Assembly: GCF_022430525.1 (NCBI RefSeq)
Contig: NZ_CP092521.1
Coordinates: 1-64,000, forward strand
DNA: 64,000 nt
Direction: 5' to 3'
Origin: Cetobacterium somerae
GTDB lineage: Bacteria; Fusobacteriota; Fusobacteriia; Fusobacteriales; Fusobacteriaceae
Below the pieces are notes generated by a model. That model ran no database searches. It had not been told where the DNA came from and saw nothing but the letters and a program-made list of their open reading frames with translations. The position numbers and the translations under genes are program-made. Of the stretch, positions 28,033 through 44,114 are shown in pieces (position 1 is the first letter of the stretch; each line of letters opens with the position of its first letter).

Positions 28033-28066
28033 TTTCTCCCATATAAATTTTATTTTTAATAAGTAA

Positions 28067-28094
28067 AACTTTTTTCATACTAAAAAACGTCTAA
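28067..28094 (+). promoter_or_regulatory. Sigma-E (ECF) type promoter
   Basis: AACTT (28067-28071), 17 bases, then GTCTAA (28089-28094), with T-rich sequence after the -35. The same pair of boxes with 16-base spacing precedes the two C-rich small RNAs at 35.5 and 39.1 kb. It faces the small transcript that ends at 28379 and there is no other gene on this strand here. Confidence 0.6.
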
Positions 28095-28099
28095 AAAGT

Positions 28100-28380
28100 A
28101 TAATAATAGTTAGAATAGTAGAAAAGGATTTAATAGTAAAGTAGTAAAAAATAGCCATCACACAGTTTCAAAAATGTTTTAATATTAAAGTTTTAACAAA
28201 TTGTGAAGTTGTTTTTTCTAACTATTATATTGAGGTAATAGATTTAAAGTCAGTAAAGTGTTTTATTTTTAAGATGTTTTTAAAAGAAAAAGGTTTTACA
28301 AGTTTTAAAGTTATTCAAACGTGAAAAAGATTTAAAGAGCGGAAGTAGAGGGATTTGTGATGGTTGCCCTCTACTTTTTA
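28100..28380 (+). ncRNA. Putative sigma-E-dependent small transcript (structured RNA or sORF)
   Basis: The 355-bp gap between two leftward genes holds an independent rightward unit: a sigma-E-like promoter, about 280 transcribed bases, and a strong terminator (AAGTAGAGGG at 28343-28352 with CCCTCTACTT at 28367-28376, then T). The 5' end (TAATAGTTAGAA, 28104-28115) is perfectly complementary to 28216-28227, so the RNA can fold on itself. One frame is open from 28151 to 28324 (57 codons, ending GFTSFKVIQT) but has no ATG, GTG or TTG at a sensible place. It could be a regulatory RNA, a small protein with an unusual start, or a gene remnant. Confidence 0.5.
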
Positions 28381-28387
28381 ATTTCTT

Positions 28388-30418: not shown

Positions 30419-31150
30419 ATGAAAAAATTATTTTTATTATCACTTATCGCTTTAGGAACAACAGCTTATGCTAAAGAAGTTGCTCAACCAATTGAAGTTG
30501 TAGAAGAAATCATTATTACAGAAGAGGTTATAATAGCTCCAGTTGAAGAGGTTGTTGTAGCAACTACTAAAAATAATTTATATATAAGAACAGGTTTAGA
30601 TGTATGGTCACAATATGATTCACATTCAATCTATCATGAAAAAAATGGAATAAAAGTATCTAATGGAGATACTAAAAAAATGGGTTATGAATTTGCTATA
30701 GAAAATACAAGAAATATAACTGATAACTTTGAATTAGGATTAGGAGTAGCTTATCAAAATCATGCTGGATTAAAATCAGAAAATAGAAATGGTATAAACT
30801 ATGAAATTGGAAAATATGATTCTGCACCTTTATATGTAGTTGGAAAGTATAATTTTACTACTTTTGAAAATGGAATTACTCCATACGTAAAAGCTAACGT
30901 AGGATACTCATTTAATTTTAATTCAAAAGATGGAGAGATTGCAGGTGTTAACTATTCAACTAAAATAGATGATGGTTTCTACTATGGTGTTGGAACAGGA
31001 ATGGAATATAATAACTTTACTGTAGATATTATGTACCAAGCTAACCAAGCTAAAGTTAAAGGAACTGTAGATGGAGCAACTGACTCTCATAAAAAATCAC
31101 TTGACTATTCAAGAATTACTTTAGGATTTGGATATAAATTCTCATACTAA
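30419..31150 (+). CDS. Outer-membrane beta-barrel protein
   Basis: A 243-residue protein with a signal peptide (MKKLFLLSLIALGTTAYA), a short acidic, valine-rich linker (VEVVEEIIITEEVIIAPVEEVVV), and about eight predicted amphipathic beta strands ending in an aromatic residue (ITLGFGYKFSY), the usual barrel-insertion signal. It resembles OmpW/opacity-type porins and the fusobacterial outer-membrane proteins. It has an AGGGAGG site. The acidic linker may interact with cell wall or a partner, as in some fusobacterial OMPs. Ligand unknown. Confidence 0.82.
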   Translation: MKKLFLLSLIALGTTAYAKEVAQPIEVVEEIIITEEVIIAPVEEVVVATTKNNLYIRTGLDVWSQYDSHSIYHEKNGIKVSNGDTKKMGYEFAIENTRNITDNFELGLGVAYQNHAGLKSENRNGINYEIGKYDSAPLYVVGKYNFTTFENGITPYVKANVGYSFNFNSKDGEIAGVNYSTKIDDGFYYGVGTGMEYNNFTVDIMYQANQAKVKGTVDGATDSHKKSLDYSRITLGFGYKFSY

Positions 31151-34760: not shown

Positions 34761-35378
34761 CTATTTTATTTTTATAGATTTTAAGCCTTTTTTCACTCCA
34801 AAATATATTAAAATAAGTCCCACTCCTGAATTTAATAAACTCAATATTCGTTGAGATAAAAAATTATTTGTTATAGATCCTAGAAAAACTATCAAAGTTA
34901 AAAAAAATAATGTAGCTAAAAGAGCTCCAAGTGCAAAAAGAAGTATAGATTTTTTAGTAAAATTTTCTTCATTAGTTCTTGTGGTAAAAACTCCTATCCA
35001 AAATAGAATTGTCATAGGATTTGCTCCTGTTAAAAGAAATGCTTTAATAAAAGGTGAACTTGAGCTAGAATCTCCAAATATATTCATTTTTGGAAGAATT
35101 GATATCCCAAAATATCCTAAGAAAAGTTCCATTCCAAAAATAATAATAATTAAAGTTCCTAAAATATTGAACCCATATTGAATTTTTTCTTTTTTTACGA
35201 AAGACGAAATGCCTAAAATTGCAAGTGCTATGTAGAAAGCATCTGCTAAAACAACTCCTAAAACACCTAATTCTGCTCGCCAAAAGCTTTGACCAATTCC
35301 TAAAGAAAAAATGTACATACATACTGGTCCTATGGCAATTTGCAACAACATTCCAAATTTAAATCCCTCAAATATCAA
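34761..35378 (-). CDS. LysE-family amino-acid exporter
   Basis: A 205-residue membrane protein with about six hydrophobic segments. The N-terminal MLLQIAIGPVCMYIFSLGIGQS carries the G-P motif of LysE/RhtB transporters, followed by the LADAFYIALAILGIS helix and the TGANPMTILFWIGVF segment. These export lysine, threonine, homoserine or other amino acids. It converges with the XRE-cupin regulator. The substrate is not known. Confidence 0.85.
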   Translation of the reverse strand: MIFEGFKFGMLLQIAIGPVCMYIFSLGIGQSFWRAELGVLGVVLADAFYIALAILGISSFVKKEKIQYGFNILGTLIIIIFGMELFLGYFGISILPKMNIFGDSSSSSPFIKAFLLTGANPMTILFWIGVFTTRTNEENFTKKSILLFALGALLATLFFLTLIVFLGSITNNFLSQRILSLLNSGVGLILIYFGVKKGLKSIKIK

Positions 35379-35464
35379 CGATGCCTCCCTGCTTAATTTA
35401 TTATTTATTTTATAATATCATAAAAAAATTTTATAAACTATTTTAATTTTTATAAATATTTTAA

Positions 35465-35491
35465 AACTTTTTTGTAAAACCTATTGTCTAA
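35465..35491 (+). promoter_or_regulatory. Sigma-E (ECF) type promoter of small RNA copy 1
   Basis: AACTT (35465-35469), 16 bases, GTCTAA (35486-35491). The block from TTTAAAACTTTTTT to TATTATAA is nearly the same before the second copy at 39.1 kb. The box pair matches the GGAACTT-N16-GTCTAA consensus known for sigma-E in enterobacteria. Confidence 0.6.
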
Positions 35492-35497
35492 ATATTA

Positions 35498-35578
35498 TAA
35501 AAAGTGTTAAAAGTAATAATATAATTTTAATCCCCCCAGAGAGCCTCTATCCCCCCCAGAGGCTCTCCTCCTTTTTTG
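35498..35578 (+). ncRNA. C-rich small RNA candidate, copy 1
   Basis: An independent unit of about 80 bases in the gap between the divergent LysE gene and the lipoprotein gene; nothing else is transcribed rightward here. After a short A/T-rich leader comes TCCCCCC, then a perfect 10-bp terminator stem (35539-35548 and 35558-35567) whose loop is ATCCCCCCC, then CTCC and six T. The exposed C-runs are complementary to Shine-Dalgarno sequences (GGGGG, GGAGG), as in sigma-E-controlled and other C-rich regulatory RNAs. A second copy lies at 39.1 kb. Confidence 0.62.
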
Positions 35579-35632
35579 GAGAATTTCTAATTTTATATGA
35601 TATAATACTTCTATAAAAAAGGAGGTTAGAAA

Positions 35633-36001
35633 ATGAAAAAAATATGGTTAGGATTAGTTTTAATAATGTTCAGTTTATTAGGTTGTAAGAGTCTTGAAGA
35701 AAAAAAAGAAAACTCAATTAAAATAAACCTTATTGGAAATATTGTACCTAAAGATAATTTAACTGTTTTACTTTTTGCGTATGATGATAGAATAGCTGAT
35801 AAAAAAGCCGATTTAGTTGGAAAAAAAAATATTATACTAAAAGAACATGAAAATATTGTTGAGTTTACAACTCCAAAAGATAATAGAACTTACTACATCT
35901 CTTTAGAAAATAATGATGACTATTCTTTGGATTATAGCAGTGGTAGTATTCAAAAGCTTAAGTTTACGAAAGGGAATGAAGTTAAAATAAATAAAAAATA
36001 A
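35633..36001 (+). CDS. Small lipoprotein
   Basis: A 122-residue lipoprotein (lipobox LLGC, Cys18). The mature part is a beta-rich domain, KINLIGNIVPKDNLTVLLFAYDDRIADKKADLV..., that resembles YbaY/YscW-type lipoprotein domains; this match is tentative. It has a strong AAAGGAGG site and a TATAAT box upstream, and its own terminator. It lies just after the small RNA copy 1. Confidence 0.65.
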   Translation: MKKIWLGLVLIMFSLLGCKSLEEKKENSIKINLIGNIVPKDNLTVLLFAYDDRIADKKADLVGKKNIILKEHENIVEFTTPKDNRTYYISLENNDDYSLDYSSGSIQKLKFTKGNEVKINKK

Positions 36002-36007
36002 CTCTAT

Positions 36008-36034
36008 AAGGAACTTTTACAAGTTCCTTTTTTA
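36008..36034 (+). terminator. Intrinsic terminator
   Basis: A 9-bp stem, AAGGAACTT with AAGTTCCTT, a 4-base loop and then TTTT, directly after the lipoprotein stop. Confidence 0.85.
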
Positions 36035-36200
36035 TTTGCTATAGAATAAAATTAAATAAAAATTTCTAAAAAATATTTTTTATAGCTAATTATTTAAAAC
36101 TAATGTATAATATCACAAATTTATAGCTAAACTCTTTTAATTAGAGAGACATAAACTGATCAATATAAAAAAATATATAAAATATCTAAAGGAGAGTTTT

Positions 36201-37010
36201 ATGAAAAAATATATTTATCTTATAGGAGGAATTTTAATGCTGTTATTAAGTCCACTCTATGGAGCTGAATTTAAAGAAAATGATAGCATTTCAAATTTTT
36301 TTAAACAAAAAAATATCAATGGAACCTTTGTACTTTACGATGTCCAGACTAAAAGTTTAACGGGTTATAATGAAACCCGTGCATTTACTCAATATCAACC
36401 TGCTTCTACTTTTAAAATTCCAAACACTTTAATAGGCCTCTCTCTAGGGATAGTTAAAAATGTAGATACCGTTGCTTATAAGCACGATGGAAAAAAATTA
36501 TGGAATAAATCTTGGGAAAAAGATGTAAATCTTAGGGAAGCTATAAAATTATCTCACTTACCTGCATATCAGCAGTTAGCTCAGAAAATCGGAACAGTTA
36601 AAATGCAAGAGAATCTTTCAAAAATAGATTATGGTAATAAAAATATTGGAAAGAATCTTACAACTTTCTGGTTAAGAGGTCCGTTAAAAATAAGTGCTAT
36701 TGAACAGGTATATTTTTTAGAAAAACTTGCCAAACGTGAACTTGATTACTCTAAAGATATCCAGGAATCTGTTATAGAAATTATTAAATTAGATAATGGT
36801 GATATGTGGACACTGTACGGTAAAACGGGTTGGGCAACAAGAGATTTAAACAAAAACCTTAACCCTACTTTAGGATGGTTCGTAGGTTGGGTGGAACAAA
36901 ATAAGAAACTTTACATCTTTGCTTTAAATATGGATATAAAAGATTCTTCACAACTTCCTCTACGACAAGAAATAGCTCTTGAAATTTTAAAAAATGAATT
37001 AAATATTTAG
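36201..37010 (+). CDS. Class D (OXA-type) beta-lactamase
   Basis: A 269-residue serine beta-lactamase. It has a signal peptide (residues 1-22, ending LYGAEF). The catalytic motif is S69-T-F-K72 in PASTFKIPN, with the SxV-like S118-H-L, Y144-G-N, W157 (the family tryptophan that stabilises the carboxylated lysine), and K208-T-G in LYGKTGW. The order and spacing are those of active class D enzymes; only SxV is changed, to SHL. It hydrolyses beta-lactams in the periplasm. It leads an apparent two-gene unit with a DMT transporter. Its composition matches its neighbours, and no mobile element is adjacent. Confidence 0.92.
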   Translation: MKKYIYLIGGILMLLLSPLYGAEFKENDSISNFFKQKNINGTFVLYDVQTKSLTGYNETRAFTQYQPASTFKIPNTLIGLSLGIVKNVDTVAYKHDGKKLWNKSWEKDVNLREAIKLSHLPAYQQLAQKIGTVKMQENLSKIDYGNKNIGKNLTTFWLRGPLKISAIEQVYFLEKLAKRELDYSKDIQESVIEIIKLDNGDMWTLYGKTGWATRDLNKNLNPTLGWFVGWVEQNKKLYIFALNMDIKDSSQLPLRQEIALEILKNELNI

Positions 37011-37034
37011 AAAATGAAAAATGGGGGGTAAACA

Positions 37035-37910
37035 GTGAATGCTAAATTAAAAATAATTATTACAATGGTAACCTTTGGAACTTTAGGTCCTTTTATTAAA
37101 AATATAGGTCTTGTTTCCAGTGAAATAGCTTTATATAGAGCAATTATAGCTCTGATAATTCTTACGATTTTTATATTGTTCAACAAAAAATTTTCTCAAG
37201 TCTCTACGGTTAAAAATAATCTTTGGAAACTATTTTTTTCTGGAGGAGCTATGGGATTTAACTGGATCTTACTCTTTGAAGCTTACAATTATACCAGTAT
37301 CGCCTTAGCGACTCTTTGTTACTATTTTGCTCCTGTTGTCGTTGTTATAATGAGTACTCTCTTTTTTAGAGAAAAACTTACACTTAAACAAATAATATGT
37401 TTTATAGGTTCTACAATAGGTTTGATACTTATAATAGGAGTCAGCAGTGGAGGAAAAAGTGATATGACTGGTATTTTATTTGGCCTTGGAGCAGCTGTTC
37501 TTTATGCCACAGTAATTTTATTAAATAAATCTATGACTGGTATCGACGGAATAACAAGAACTATATTTCAACTTGCTGCGGCAGTTATGGTTATATTTCC
37601 TTATGTTTTTGGAACTGAAGGTTTTCATATATTACAACTTGATAATATTGGATTAATTAATCTTATTATTGTAGGAATAGTACATACTGGAATAGTTTAT
37701 GTTTTATATTTTTCGTCACTCTCGGAATTAAGTGGACAGGAAGTATCAGTACTTAGCTATTTAGATCCTCTTTTTGCAATTTTAATATCTATTTTATGGA
37801 TGGGAGAATCTATAACTCAACTTCAATTATTAGGTGGTGGAATGATTCTTCTATTTACTCTTACCAACGAAATGAAAATTTATAAAAAATCTATTTTAAA
37901 AGCAAAATAG
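37035..37910 (+). CDS. EamA/DMT-family transporter
   Basis: A 291-residue membrane protein with about ten hydrophobic segments in two EamA repeats. It has the typical MVTFGTLGPFIKNIGLVSSE start and the FAPVVVVIMSTLFFREKLT and YLDPLFAILISILWMGE motifs that end each repeat. It starts with GTG after a GGGGG site, 24 bp after the beta-lactamase stop, so the two are probably co-transcribed. DMT proteins export metabolites or drugs; the substrate is not known. Confidence 0.85.
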   Translation: MNAKLKIIITMVTFGTLGPFIKNIGLVSSEIALYRAIIALIILTIFILFNKKFSQVSTVKNNLWKLFFSGGAMGFNWILLFEAYNYTSIALATLCYYFAPVVVVIMSTLFFREKLTLKQIICFIGSTIGLILIIGVSSGGKSDMTGILFGLGAAVLYATVILLNKSMTGIDGITRTIFQLAAAVMVIFPYVFGTEGFHILQLDNIGLINLIIVGIVHTGIVYVLYFSSLSELSGQEVSVLSYLDPLFAILISILWMGESITQLQLLGGGMILLFTLTNEMKIYKKSILKAK

Positions 37911-37927
37911 TCATTATCTTTACAATC

Positions 37928-37957
37928 AAAAAAGTTCAGTAAATACTGGACTTTTTT
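37928..37957 (+). terminator. Intrinsic terminator
   Basis: A stem of about 13 bp with one G-T pair (AAAAAGTTCAGTA with TACTGGACTTTTTT) followed by T, after the DMT gene. Confidence 0.8.
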
Positions 37958-38118
37958 TAGTCTTATAATTTTGTTTAATTTCATTTTAAAATAAAATATT
38001 TATGGACTAACTGTGATAATTAGAATAAAATATTTGTATCTATTTAACAGAACAAATTTTAAATATAATTATTAAGGATTTAAAGAAGATAAAAATAAAT
38101 TTTGAAGGAACGTGAAAT

Positions 38119-39054
38119 ATGAACCAAGTTTTAAAGTATATGTATATAGTTAATTATCCAACATTTGAAGAAGATCTCTGTCTATTAGAAATGAGAGCTA
38201 TTTTTGGGAAAATACCCGATGAAAAAACTTTATTTTCAAATATAGGATTTAATTCATCTAATAGTCCTTTTATAAAGACTCGTCTGGATATTATCTATGA
38301 GAAAGATACTATAGAAGAACTTTTAGTTGAAATAAATAAGGACACAACAGTCTATAATAACTTTAAATTAGAATATGTGAGATTAAACAATAATAATAAC
38401 ATCCCTTATGAGGAAAGATTAGATTTGATAAAAAAACTTTCTATGAATATTATAGGTACTCACAATTTTAAAAATCCTGAATTTAATTTTGGTGTAACTA
38501 AAGTCGATGGCAAGTGGCTATTTGGTATTGATAATAAAAATGATTACAAATGGCATACTCATGACAATAAGCCGTGCTCTTATTCTAATTCATTAGGTGT
38601 TAAAGTTGCTAAAGCTATTGTTAATATTGCTAACAATGGTTTAAAAGAAAAAACTATTATAGACCCTTGTTGTGGAGTTGGAACTACAATAGTTGAAGCA
38701 CTAGATGCTGGTTATCAGATAGAAGGATATGAAATAAATAAACACATCGCAAAAAATGCAAATATTAATTTAGAGTTTTATGGATTTAATCCTATAGTTA
38801 TAAATGACGATATGCATAATATAAAGAAGAAATATGATAGTTCTATAATTGATATTCCTTATGGTCTTTTTAGTCATACTTCTGAAGATGAACAACAAGA
38901 TATAATTAATACTGCTCGAAGAATTTCAAATAAAATAGTTTTAATCTCTTTTGAAGAACATGATTCCATGATAGCTAAAGCTGGATTTAAAATAATTGAT
39001 AGATGTGTTGTTACAAAGGGAAAGTTTAAAAGATTCATAGTAGTTGCAGAATAA
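38119..39054 (+). CDS. TRM11/UPF0020-like RNA methyltransferase
   Basis: A 311-residue methyltransferase. The C-terminal half has a SAM motif of the RNA N-methyltransferase type, IIDPCCGVGTTIVEAL, a strand ending IEGYEINKHIAKNA, and a catalytic DIPYG (like the N/D-PPY of TrmN/RsmD relatives). The N-terminal region (YMYIVNYPTFEEDLCLLEMRAIFG) matches the THUMP-like part of TRM11-type proteins. It probably methylates a tRNA or rRNA guanine at N2; the target is not known. It is a single gene, and the second small RNA copy follows on the same strand. Confidence 0.82.
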   Translation: MNQVLKYMYIVNYPTFEEDLCLLEMRAIFGKIPDEKTLFSNIGFNSSNSPFIKTRLDIIYEKDTIEELLVEINKDTTVYNNFKLEYVRLNNNNNIPYEERLDLIKKLSMNIIGTHNFKNPEFNFGVTKVDGKWLFGIDNKNDYKWHTHDNKPCSYSNSLGVKVAKAIVNIANNGLKEKTIIDPCCGVGTTIVEALDAGYQIEGYEINKHIAKNANINLEFYGFNPIVINDDMHNIKKKYDSSIIDIPYGLFSHTSEDEQQDIINTARRISNKIVLISFEEHDSMIAKAGFKIIDRCVVTKGKFKRFIVVAE

Positions 39055-39101
39055 TTTTTTATTTATAATTAAAATATTCAAAAAAAATAAATTAAATTTA
39101 A

Positions 39102-39128
39102 AACTTTTTTTAGAAACCTGTGGTCTAA
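39102..39128 (+). promoter_or_regulatory. Sigma-E (ECF) type promoter of small RNA copy 2
   Basis: AACTT (39102-39106), 16 bases, GTCTAA (39123-39128), in the same sequence context as copy 1 at 35.5 kb. Confidence 0.6.
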
Positions 39129-39134
39129 ATATTA

Positions 39135-39213
39135 TAAGTGTTAAAAGTAAAAATATAATTTAATCCCCCTAAAAAGAGCCTCTATCCCCCCAGAGGCTCT
39201 TTCCCTTTTTTGA
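39135..39213 (+). ncRNA. C-rich small RNA candidate, copy 2
   Basis: A near duplicate of the RNA at 35.5 kb: shared leader (AGTGTTAAAAGTAA), a C-run (TCCCCC), and a perfect 11-bp terminator stem (39173-39183 and 39192-39202) with loop ATCCCCCC, then CCC and T6. It differs by a few substitutions and a 3-base gap. Unlike copy 1 it lies 80 bp after a same-strand gene, so it could also act as that gene's terminator, but its promoter is conserved. The gap has no coding frame. Confidence 0.6.
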
Positions 39214-39223
39214 AACTTCTTTT

Positions 39224-39694
39224 TTACTTATTTAATTTCATATGTAAGATTGGATAAGGATTACCGTGGTCATCAAATTCAGATCTTTTGAATACGCTAA
39301 AACCTATATGCTCATAAAAAGCAGTTCCTTTTGGATTTTGTTCATTAACATCTACATATTTTACATTAAGATTAGAAATTACAAAATTAATAAGTTGCTT
39401 ACCAATCCCTTTTCCACGAAAATCATCACTTACAAAAAGCATTTCTATTTTATCCTCATGAATCCCTATAAAAGCTATTATTTCCTCATTATTTCTTATA
39501 CAAAAGAATTCATCTACATAAAGAGCCCCCTGCTCAACAAGCGGCTTTAAATCCATTATGTCACTTTCTTTTAAAAAGAAATGTGTTGCTCGAACTGAAG
39601 ACTCCCAAACATTTAATATATCACTGATTTCTTTTTTTATTAACTCTTTATTTAGTTTTTCTATTTTATAACTCACTATAATTTTCAACTCCAT
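39224..39694 (-). CDS. GNAT-family N-acetyltransferase
   Basis: A 156-residue acetyltransferase with motif A RGKGIGKQLINFVISN and the downstream VDVNEQNPKGTAFYEHIGF. The order (SDDFRGKGIGKQL, then NEQNP and FYEHIGF) is typical of YjgM/PhnO-like GNATs. It ends with YPILHMKLNK. Substrate unknown. It is read leftward, with another GNAT and a small gene upstream. Confidence 0.85.
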   Translation of the reverse strand: MELKIIVSYKIEKLNKELIKKEISDILNVWESSVRATHFFLKESDIMDLKPLVEQGALYVDEFFCIRNNEEIIAFIGIHEDKIEMLFVSDDFRGKGIGKQLINFVISNLNVKYVDVNEQNPKGTAFYEHIGFSVFKRSEFDDHGNPYPILHMKLNK

Positions 39695-42991: not shown

Positions 42992-43495
42992 ATGAACGTA
43001 AAAATTTTAATAGGAGTTGGAATTATGATTGGAACTTTAGCTTTTGGAAATTGGCAAAATTTTAAAAAACCTACAGATAATGAACTAAAATCAAAACTCA
43101 CACCTATTCAATATGCAGTCACTCAAAAAAATGCTACAGAACCGGCTTTTAATAATGAGTATGAGAACAATAAAAAAGCTGGAATCTATGTAGATATTGT
43201 CTCTGGTGAACCTCTTTTTTCATCTAAGGATAAGTTTGATTCAGGAACTGGTTGGCCAAGCTTTACAAAACCTTTAGTACCCGAAAATATAGTTTTAAAA
43301 AAAGATTTTAAACTTATTTGGCCAAGAACTGAAGTAAGAAGTAGATATGGTGATTCACATCTAGGTCACGTCTTTAACGATGGGCCAGCACCCACAGGAA
43401 AAAGATATTGTATGAACTCTGCTTCTCTAAAATTTATTCCTACTGAAGACTTAGAAAAAGAAGGGTACGGTGAATTTTTAAAAAACTTTCAATAA
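42992..43495 (+). CDS. msrB: Exported peptide-methionine (R)-S-oxide reductase MsrB
   Basis: A 167-residue MsrB domain behind a signal peptide ([19 protein letters not shown]). It has [22 protein letters not shown], the [11 protein letters not shown] motif, and the catalytic C140 in [11 protein letters not shown]. The zinc-binding CxxC pairs of some MsrB proteins are absent. It repairs methionine R-sulfoxide, here in the periplasm or cell envelope. The exported MsrA follows 37 bp downstream. Confidence 0.93.
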
Positions 43496-43532
43496 TCGCT
43501 AATAAAAATTAAATTTTTGAGGAGAAATCATT

Positions 43533-44114
43533 ATGAATAGAATAAAATTTTTATTAATATCAATGATAACTTTAAGTACTATTTCTATGGCTGAAATAAA
43601 AGTAGCTTATTTAGCTGGAGGATGTTTTTGGTGTACAGAAGCTGATATGGAAAAAGTTCCTGGAGTTGTAGATGTAATCTCTGGATACTCTGGTGGACAT
43701 GTGGAAAACCCTACATATGACCAAGTATCTAGTGGAACCACTGGACATTTTGAGTCTATCGAGGTAAAATATGATAGTGACAAAATTAGCTATTCTCAAT
43801 TATTACATAGCTTTTTAAAGGTAATTAATCCTACTGATGACAATGGACAATTTGTAGATAGAGGATATCAGTACTCACCAGCTATTTTCTATCAAAATAC
43901 CAATGAAGAGAATCTTGCAAAAAAAGCTTTAAAGCAAATACAAAAAGAAGGACATTTTGCTGAAATAAATGTTAAACTTCTTCCGTTTAATAAATTCTAT
44001 GCTGCCGAGAAGTATCATCAAGATTATTATAAAAAAAATCCTATACGATATAAATACTACAGATATCGTTCTGGTAGAGATCAATTCTTAGAAAAAGTTT
44101 GGGGAAATAATTAA
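43533..44114 (+). CDS. msrA: Exported peptide-methionine (S)-S-oxide reductase MsrA
   Basis: A 193-residue MsrA with a signal peptide (MNRIKFLLISMITLSTISMAE) and the catalytic motif AGGCFWCTE (C31, C34 counted in the precursor), followed by YSGGHVENPTYDQVSSGTTGHFE and EKYHQDYY. It reduces methionine S-sulfoxide. It needs an electron source in the envelope that is not encoded nearby. Confidence 0.93.
   Translation: MNRIKFLLISMITLSTISMAEIKVAYLAGGCFWCTEADMEKVPGVVDVISGYSGGHVENPTYDQVSSGTTGHFESIEVKYDSDKISYSQLLHSFLKVINPTDDNGQFVDRGYQYSPAIFYQNTNEENLAKKALKQIQKEGHFAEINVKLLPFNKFYAAEKYHQDYYKKNPIRYKYYRYRSGRDQFLEKVWGNN

Follow-up and report, generated by a model that had tools for sequence, protein, structure and literature searches.

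In Fusobacterium nucleatum two dissimilar small RNAs (sRNAs), FoxI and FoxJ, depend on sigma-E, are induced by oxygen and repress fomA through a C-stretch seed, which is linear in FoxI and lies in a hairpin loop in FoxJ; FoxJ (∼156 nt) is encoded between der and ylmH, and the species is reported to be without Hfq and ProQ (PMC11005410). The LhrC family of Listeria monocytogenes (LhrC1–5, Rli22 and Rli33-1) has seven members of 105–121 nt under the control of the LisRK two-component system, is linked to envelope stress and pairs with the Shine–Dalgarno (SD) sites of surface-protein mRNAs through repeated C-motifs, which are single-stranded or placed in the terminator loop (PMC4132741, PMC8079631). 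The enterobacterial MicA, RybB and MicL form a sigma-E driven noncoding arm that lowers outer-membrane proteins (PMC11005410). Here, two C-rich units were analysed in a stretch of 64 000 nt of Cetobacterium somerae (contig NZ_CP092521.1, positions 1–64 000; the window), together with their relatives in other genomes. They are read, with a probability of about 80%, as members of a FoxI-like family of C-rich antisense sRNAs that is multiplied in copy number, depends on sigma-E and would act in the manner of Listeria LhrC. At the level of sequence this reading is carried by the units themselves, their copy number, their autonomous promoter and terminator, the covariation of the terminator stem and the conservation of the C-runs, together with a promoter common to the units and an extracytoplasmic function (ECF) sigma gene and with complementarity to a porin ribosome-binding site (RBS).

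The initial annotation had described two duplicate units, each with a promoter of the form AACTT-N16-GTCTAA, a leader, a C-run and a C-loop terminator, and all of these parts were found where it had placed them (Table 1). In both units an AU-rich leader with AGTGTTAAAAGTA is followed by the C-run and by a strong terminator hairpin, which ends in T6. The predicted folds were far more stable than those of dinucleotide-shuffled sequences (z = −4.0 for copy 1 and −4.7 for copy 2; none of 200 shuffles was as low), and the C-runs of both copies were unpaired in them. Three copies served to build a covariance model, which matched copy 1 at 35460–35584 with 122 bits and copy 2, which is itself one of the three, at 39097–39218 with 147.9 bits.

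The number of copies proved to be larger than the pair described at first. A BLAST search with copy 1 found seven close copies in the C. somerae genome that contains the window (G000, 2.97 Mb). A methyltransferase encoded in the window had its nearest relatives in metagenome-assembled genomes of Cetobacterium. The covariance search in related genomes that had been proposed in the initial annotation gave 11 matches in this genome; sister species had at most 17, a number reached in both G003 and G005. Of 61 Fusobacteriaceae genomes, 22 contained matches. Ten units in the C. somerae genome bear a promoter, a count that, like the other counts of promoter-bearing units, rests on sequence patterns. 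Eight of the ten have both C-runs. Seven of these are the close copies; the eighth, class B (C1:1571766), is a longer form in single copy, the promoter of which, AACTT..CGTCAAA, lies farther upstream. Class A (C1:1399862) has the linear C-run only. In G005 a promoter precedes 15 units, and two C-runs are present in 14 of these. The pattern of promoter, 20–50 nt and CCCC was matched 12 times in the C. somerae genome and 35 times in G005, overlapping matches inside one long C-run being counted separately, and never in the reversed control of either genome. Class B is found in most of the genus between an rlmA-like methyltransferase gene and an MFS gene, and in the sister genus g2 (L021) it again follows an rlmA-like gene and carries a linear and a loop C-run. 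Genomes G011–G013 have just 0–2 covariance-model matches, so that the family seems to have expanded to its high copy number later, inside the genus. Some sister-species copies (L104:4109–4234, L156:2438–2556 and L158:2476–2590) have decayed promoters, for example without the −35 box, and are probably pseudogenes of the sRNA family.

The promoter boxes were present in 71 of the 76 covariance-model matches once GTCCAA was allowed. Of 70 promoters selected for their match to the box pattern, 61 had a 16-nt spacer, and nearly all had a T-run after AACTT. The boxes alone (AACTTN15–17GTCTAA) occurred 19 times in the C. somerae genome versus 14 times in the reversed control and became specific only when the T-run or C-run was required as well. 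With AACTTTT there were 12 exact matches in this genome, of which seven belonged to sRNA units and three to a second repeated element that is described below; of the other two, one lay inside a gene and one directly before an ECF sigma gene (product with Sigma70_r2, E = 2e-15, and Sigma70_r4_2, E = 1e-10). This sigma gene stands behind its sRNA-type promoter (G000:C1:1644924) together with genes for a small, probable membrane protein (anti-sigma-like) and a small exported protein (L059:268–1469; G000:C1, ∼1643.7–1644.9 kb); the three form an apparent operon, and the two small proteins gave no match in Pfam. In F. nucleatum foxI, foxJ and rpoE have sigma-E −10 and −35 motifs in common (PMC11005410), and an ECF gene under the sRNA-type box is therefore the autoregulation to be expected. 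The sigma-E type of the promoter, as first proposed, thus agrees with the box before the organism's own ECF sigma gene, and dependence of the sRNA units on sigma-E is a prediction well supported by this shared sequence.

Within genomes, the similarity between paralogues ended at the −35 box and at the terminator (214 pairs; median extension of +8 nt upstream and −5 nt downstream), apart from a few pairs that are larger segmental duplications. Such exactly bounded similarity, together with many copies at scattered sites, would also be expected if the units were a mobile or repeat element, akin to miniature inverted-repeat transposable elements or repetitive extragenic palindromes, for which promoter and terminator would be mere cargo. 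This is very unlikely: the ends of the units showed no terminal inverted repeats; the C-runs, the boxes of the promoter and the pairing of the stem persist despite sequence divergence; the position of class B is constant in most of the genus; and simpler FoxI-like units are found across the Fusobacteriaceae. The persistence of the stem was measured over the 76 aligned matches, in which two-sided changes were seen at 11 of 11 terminator-stem pairs, with 146 cells holding double changes versus a mean of 26 after shuffling (reached in 0 of 500 shuffles) and 97% of cells paired. Since the alignment had been fitted to the structure, a sliding control is to be read beside the shuffles; it gave at most 23 cells.

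The units might instead belong to neighbouring genes, as cis-acting leaders (attenuators) or as shared terminators, and the gene context, taken from automatic calls of open reading frames, bears on this. Among 65 promoter-bearing copies at least 37 have a convergent downstream gene, 22 a divergent upstream gene and nine both, whereas 15 are flanked at short distances by two co-oriented genes, and at two single-copy loci (before a yihY-like and an MFS gene) the downstream RBS is complementary to the C-run. As leaders or terminators of neighbours the units are unlikely to be explained, because the promoter and the U-tailed terminator are paired in every unit, the gene downstream of copy 1 has a −10-like box of its own, and the settings of most copies fit neither leader nor trailer of one neighbour. 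It had been argued that copy 1 is a separate transcript because its flanking gene is divergent; the LysE-type gene is indeed on the minus strand, and for many copies the orientation of the upstream gene, the downstream gene or both likewise rules out that the unit is merely an untranslated region, which favours separate sRNA genes.

Candidate targets were searched by pattern and, for duplex energies, in a set of 297 background genes from retrieved loci. The proposal that the C-runs can cover SD sites is borne out as complementarity of the linear C-run to such sites, that of a FomA-like porin included. The RBS of this porin is GGAGGGGATTTTATG in four Cetobacterium genomes (G000, G005, G003 and G008), and GGGGAUU within it is complementary to the seed AAUCCCC. 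In a second porin of G003 the complement is longer, GGGGGATTAAATTATG matching AUAAUUUAAUCCCCC perfectly over 15 nt. By duplex energy the porin with GGAGGGGATTTTATG was in the top 3.4% of the set and the second G003 porin above all of it. The OmpW-like gene at 30419, which had been singled out earlier, showed moderate pairing (−13.6 kcal mol−1, about the top 7% of the 297 genes); the FomA-like porin is a good candidate target and the better of the two by these sequence matches. GGGGATT shortly before ATGA was found at 23 places in the C. somerae genome versus four in the reversed control; they include the porin, other secreted proteins, GlgB and ScpB, and five are kept between G000 and G005. 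A search for 14-nt complements across the genus gave just two exact matches outside the sRNAs, of which the first is at a porin RBS and the second lies within a reading frame, and was therefore not taken as evidence of broad targeting.

Several of these results weigh against an antisense family with defined targets. Of the C. somerae copies, the promoter-bearing unit at C1:856182 has degenerated (AAUCCC, with AAUUCAU in the loop), and the eleventh covariance-model match (C2:20203) has no promoter and only the hairpin in common with the others. The match between seed and RBS at the C. somerae porin is just 7 nt long, and GGGGG-type SD sites are frequent in this genome (113 versus 27 in the reversed sequence), so that complementarity alone is weak evidence. 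Secreted-like genes paired no more strongly with the seed than the others in the duplex energies of the 297 genes (p = 0.98); a general envelope-directed targetome is for this reason unsupported, and the C-run may be no more than an anti-SD sequence of broad reach. This lack of enrichment, together with the many copies and the doubled C-motif that would suit titration, is also what RNAs acting as sponges or decoys of an RNA-binding protein or of other RNAs might show in place of direct anti-SD repressors. We regard a sponge as improbable beside the complementarity to the porin RBS and the action of FoxI and FoxJ on fomA through their C-stretch (PMC11005410).

Compared with the known systems, the antisense sRNA family proposed here is closest to FoxI and FoxJ, with which it has in common a sigma-E type promoter shared with the sigma gene, a C-stretch seed, a FomA-like porin as (candidate) target and the bacterial family. 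The linear C-stretch after the leader is the particular likeness to FoxI as described (PMC11005410). The difference is that Cetobacterium has ∼8–15 homologous ∼80-nt RNAs, each with two C-runs, one linear and one in the loop. In Cetobacterium G000, G005 and G008 no unit stands directly after der, the position of FoxJ, where a response-regulator gene is found directly; in G015 (L121:1501) a C-run unit does follow der directly, as FoxJ does in F. nucleatum. The link to FoxI and FoxJ that the initial annotation had offered as a guess can be kept for architecture and promoter, and the Cetobacterium units are supported as FoxI-like by these two features; homology in sequence stays putative.

With LhrC the units share multiple copies and repeated UCCC motifs, one of them in the terminator loop, and they would work like LhrC; they differ in having an ECF sigma type promoter in place of LisRK control and in belonging to an unrelated phylum. 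Rfam gave no match for the units at the gathering threshold or at E up to 5, the LhrC family included. By these comparisons of sequence and position the units are not LhrC by homology and not FoxJ by position. A 2021 Listeria review gave seven siblings as the highest number reported (PMC4132741, PMC8079631). The 14–15 units per genome seen in Cetobacterium would exceed the seven LhrC siblings. No record is claimed, because other C-rich families, such as the cuckoo RNAs of alphaproteobacteria, were left out of the count. To MicA, RybB and MicL the likeness lies in a noncoding sigma-E arm against outer-membrane proteins, which is putative for the Cetobacterium units. The enterobacterial RNAs are single-copy and Hfq-dependent and are not known to have a C-run seed. 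A literature search for papers on sRNAs of Cetobacterium found none, which is no proof of absence.

Simpler units, consisting of the promoter, an AU-rich leader and UCUCCCC or a similar run, occur in other Fusobacteriaceae. In several genera C-run units with a sigma-E type promoter stand singly or in tandem (2–3) upstream of FomA-like porin genes (L126–L130, L120, L122 and L135), a hint that the porin and its repressor RNA may have been co-located ancestrally. Another unit of FoxI-like appearance (L082, L131 and L132) has recQ on one side and a selenouridine-synthase-like gene on the other; it is not assigned to F. nucleatum because, in the genus that bears this unit, the two genomes examined have no FoxJ-like unit after der.

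The second repeated element, noncoding and ∼300 nt long, lies at 28060–28385 (+) of the window, with a sigma-E type promoter and a terminator (GTAGAGGG..CCCTCTAC). It has three copies in the C. somerae genome and up to seven matches in sister species, and is present in 10 of 12 genomes of the genus. Within its leader, an invariant CCAUCACA is complementary to UGUGAUGG of the terminator loop, a pairing that would form a possible pseudoknot. In several genomes at most 1 kb separates this element from C-rich sRNA units.

Table 1. Features of the two sRNA units and of neighbouring genes (window coordinates).
Feature	Position	Strand	Remarks
Copy 1, sigma-E type promoter AACTT-N16-GTCTAA	35465–35491	+	−35 box 35465–35469, −10 box 35486–35491
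Copy 1, predicted sRNA (∼80 nt)	35498–35577	+	start set by −10 spacing; end at T-run 35572–35577
Copy 1, single-stranded C6 seed UAAUCCCCCC	35532–35537	+	kept across copies
Copy 1, predicted intrinsic terminator hairpin, loop C7 (35551–35557)	35539–35567	+	folding; stem covariation over 76 matches
Copy 2, sigma-E type promoter AACTT-N16-GTCTAA	39102–39128	+
Copy 2, predicted sRNA (∼77 nt)	39135–39211	+
Copy 2, single-stranded C5 seed	39165–39169	+
Copy 2, predicted terminator hairpin, loop C6 (39186–39191)	39173–39202	+	folding; stem covariation
OmpW-like outer-membrane protein gene	30419–31150	+	PF03922, below cutoff; earlier candidate target; RBS AGGGAGGATTC, moderate seed pairing
LysE-type translocator gene	34761–35378	−	PF01810; divergent from copy 1
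Small lipoprotein-like gene	35633–36001	+	downstream of copy 1; own TATAAT-like box and SD, by eye
RMKL-like methyltransferase gene	38119–39054	+	upstream of copy 2, co-oriented
GNAT acetyltransferase gene	39224–39694	−	convergent with copy 2

Between the two copies, at 36201–37010 (+), the window encodes a transpeptidase-domain protein with a signal peptide and an STFK motif (by eye), which has the look of a class D (OXA-type) beta-lactamase. Adjacent genes for exported MsrB-like and MsrA-like methionine sulfoxide reductases, recognized from their translations, follow at 42992–44114 (+).

For the sRNA family we infer transcription, dependence on sigma-E, induction by stress and repression of targets along the following lines. 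Each ∼80-nt RNA would act in trans and would have its own sigma-E (ECF) dependent promoter and its own intrinsic terminator. Envelope or oxygen stress would activate the ECF sigma factor, which would also drive its own operon, and all copies would be turned on together; their exposed C-runs (linear AAUCCCCCC and terminator loop) would pair with G-rich SD regions and block ribosome binding, and selected proteins, chiefly the FomA-like major porin, would be lowered.

Cetobacterium, a common fish-gut genus, would on balance have one of the largest described families of trans-acting sRNAs, with up to ∼15 promoter-bearing siblings per genome under one ECF sigma factor, in which a minimal cassette with a doubled C-seed was repeatedly duplicated and dose and redundancy, not diversity of RNAs, serve as the noncoding arm of the envelope-stress response; we hold this somewhat more probable than its opposite. 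The noncoding arm of sigma-E, which in Fusobacterium consists of two dissimilar RNAs, would then extend to a family with many more members in Cetobacterium. Species with ∼2 to 15 copies would offer a natural system for sRNA dosage, sibling redundancy and the duplication of minimal sRNA genes, and would make it testable whether C-rich sRNAs serve as broad SD blockers in AT-rich bacteria.
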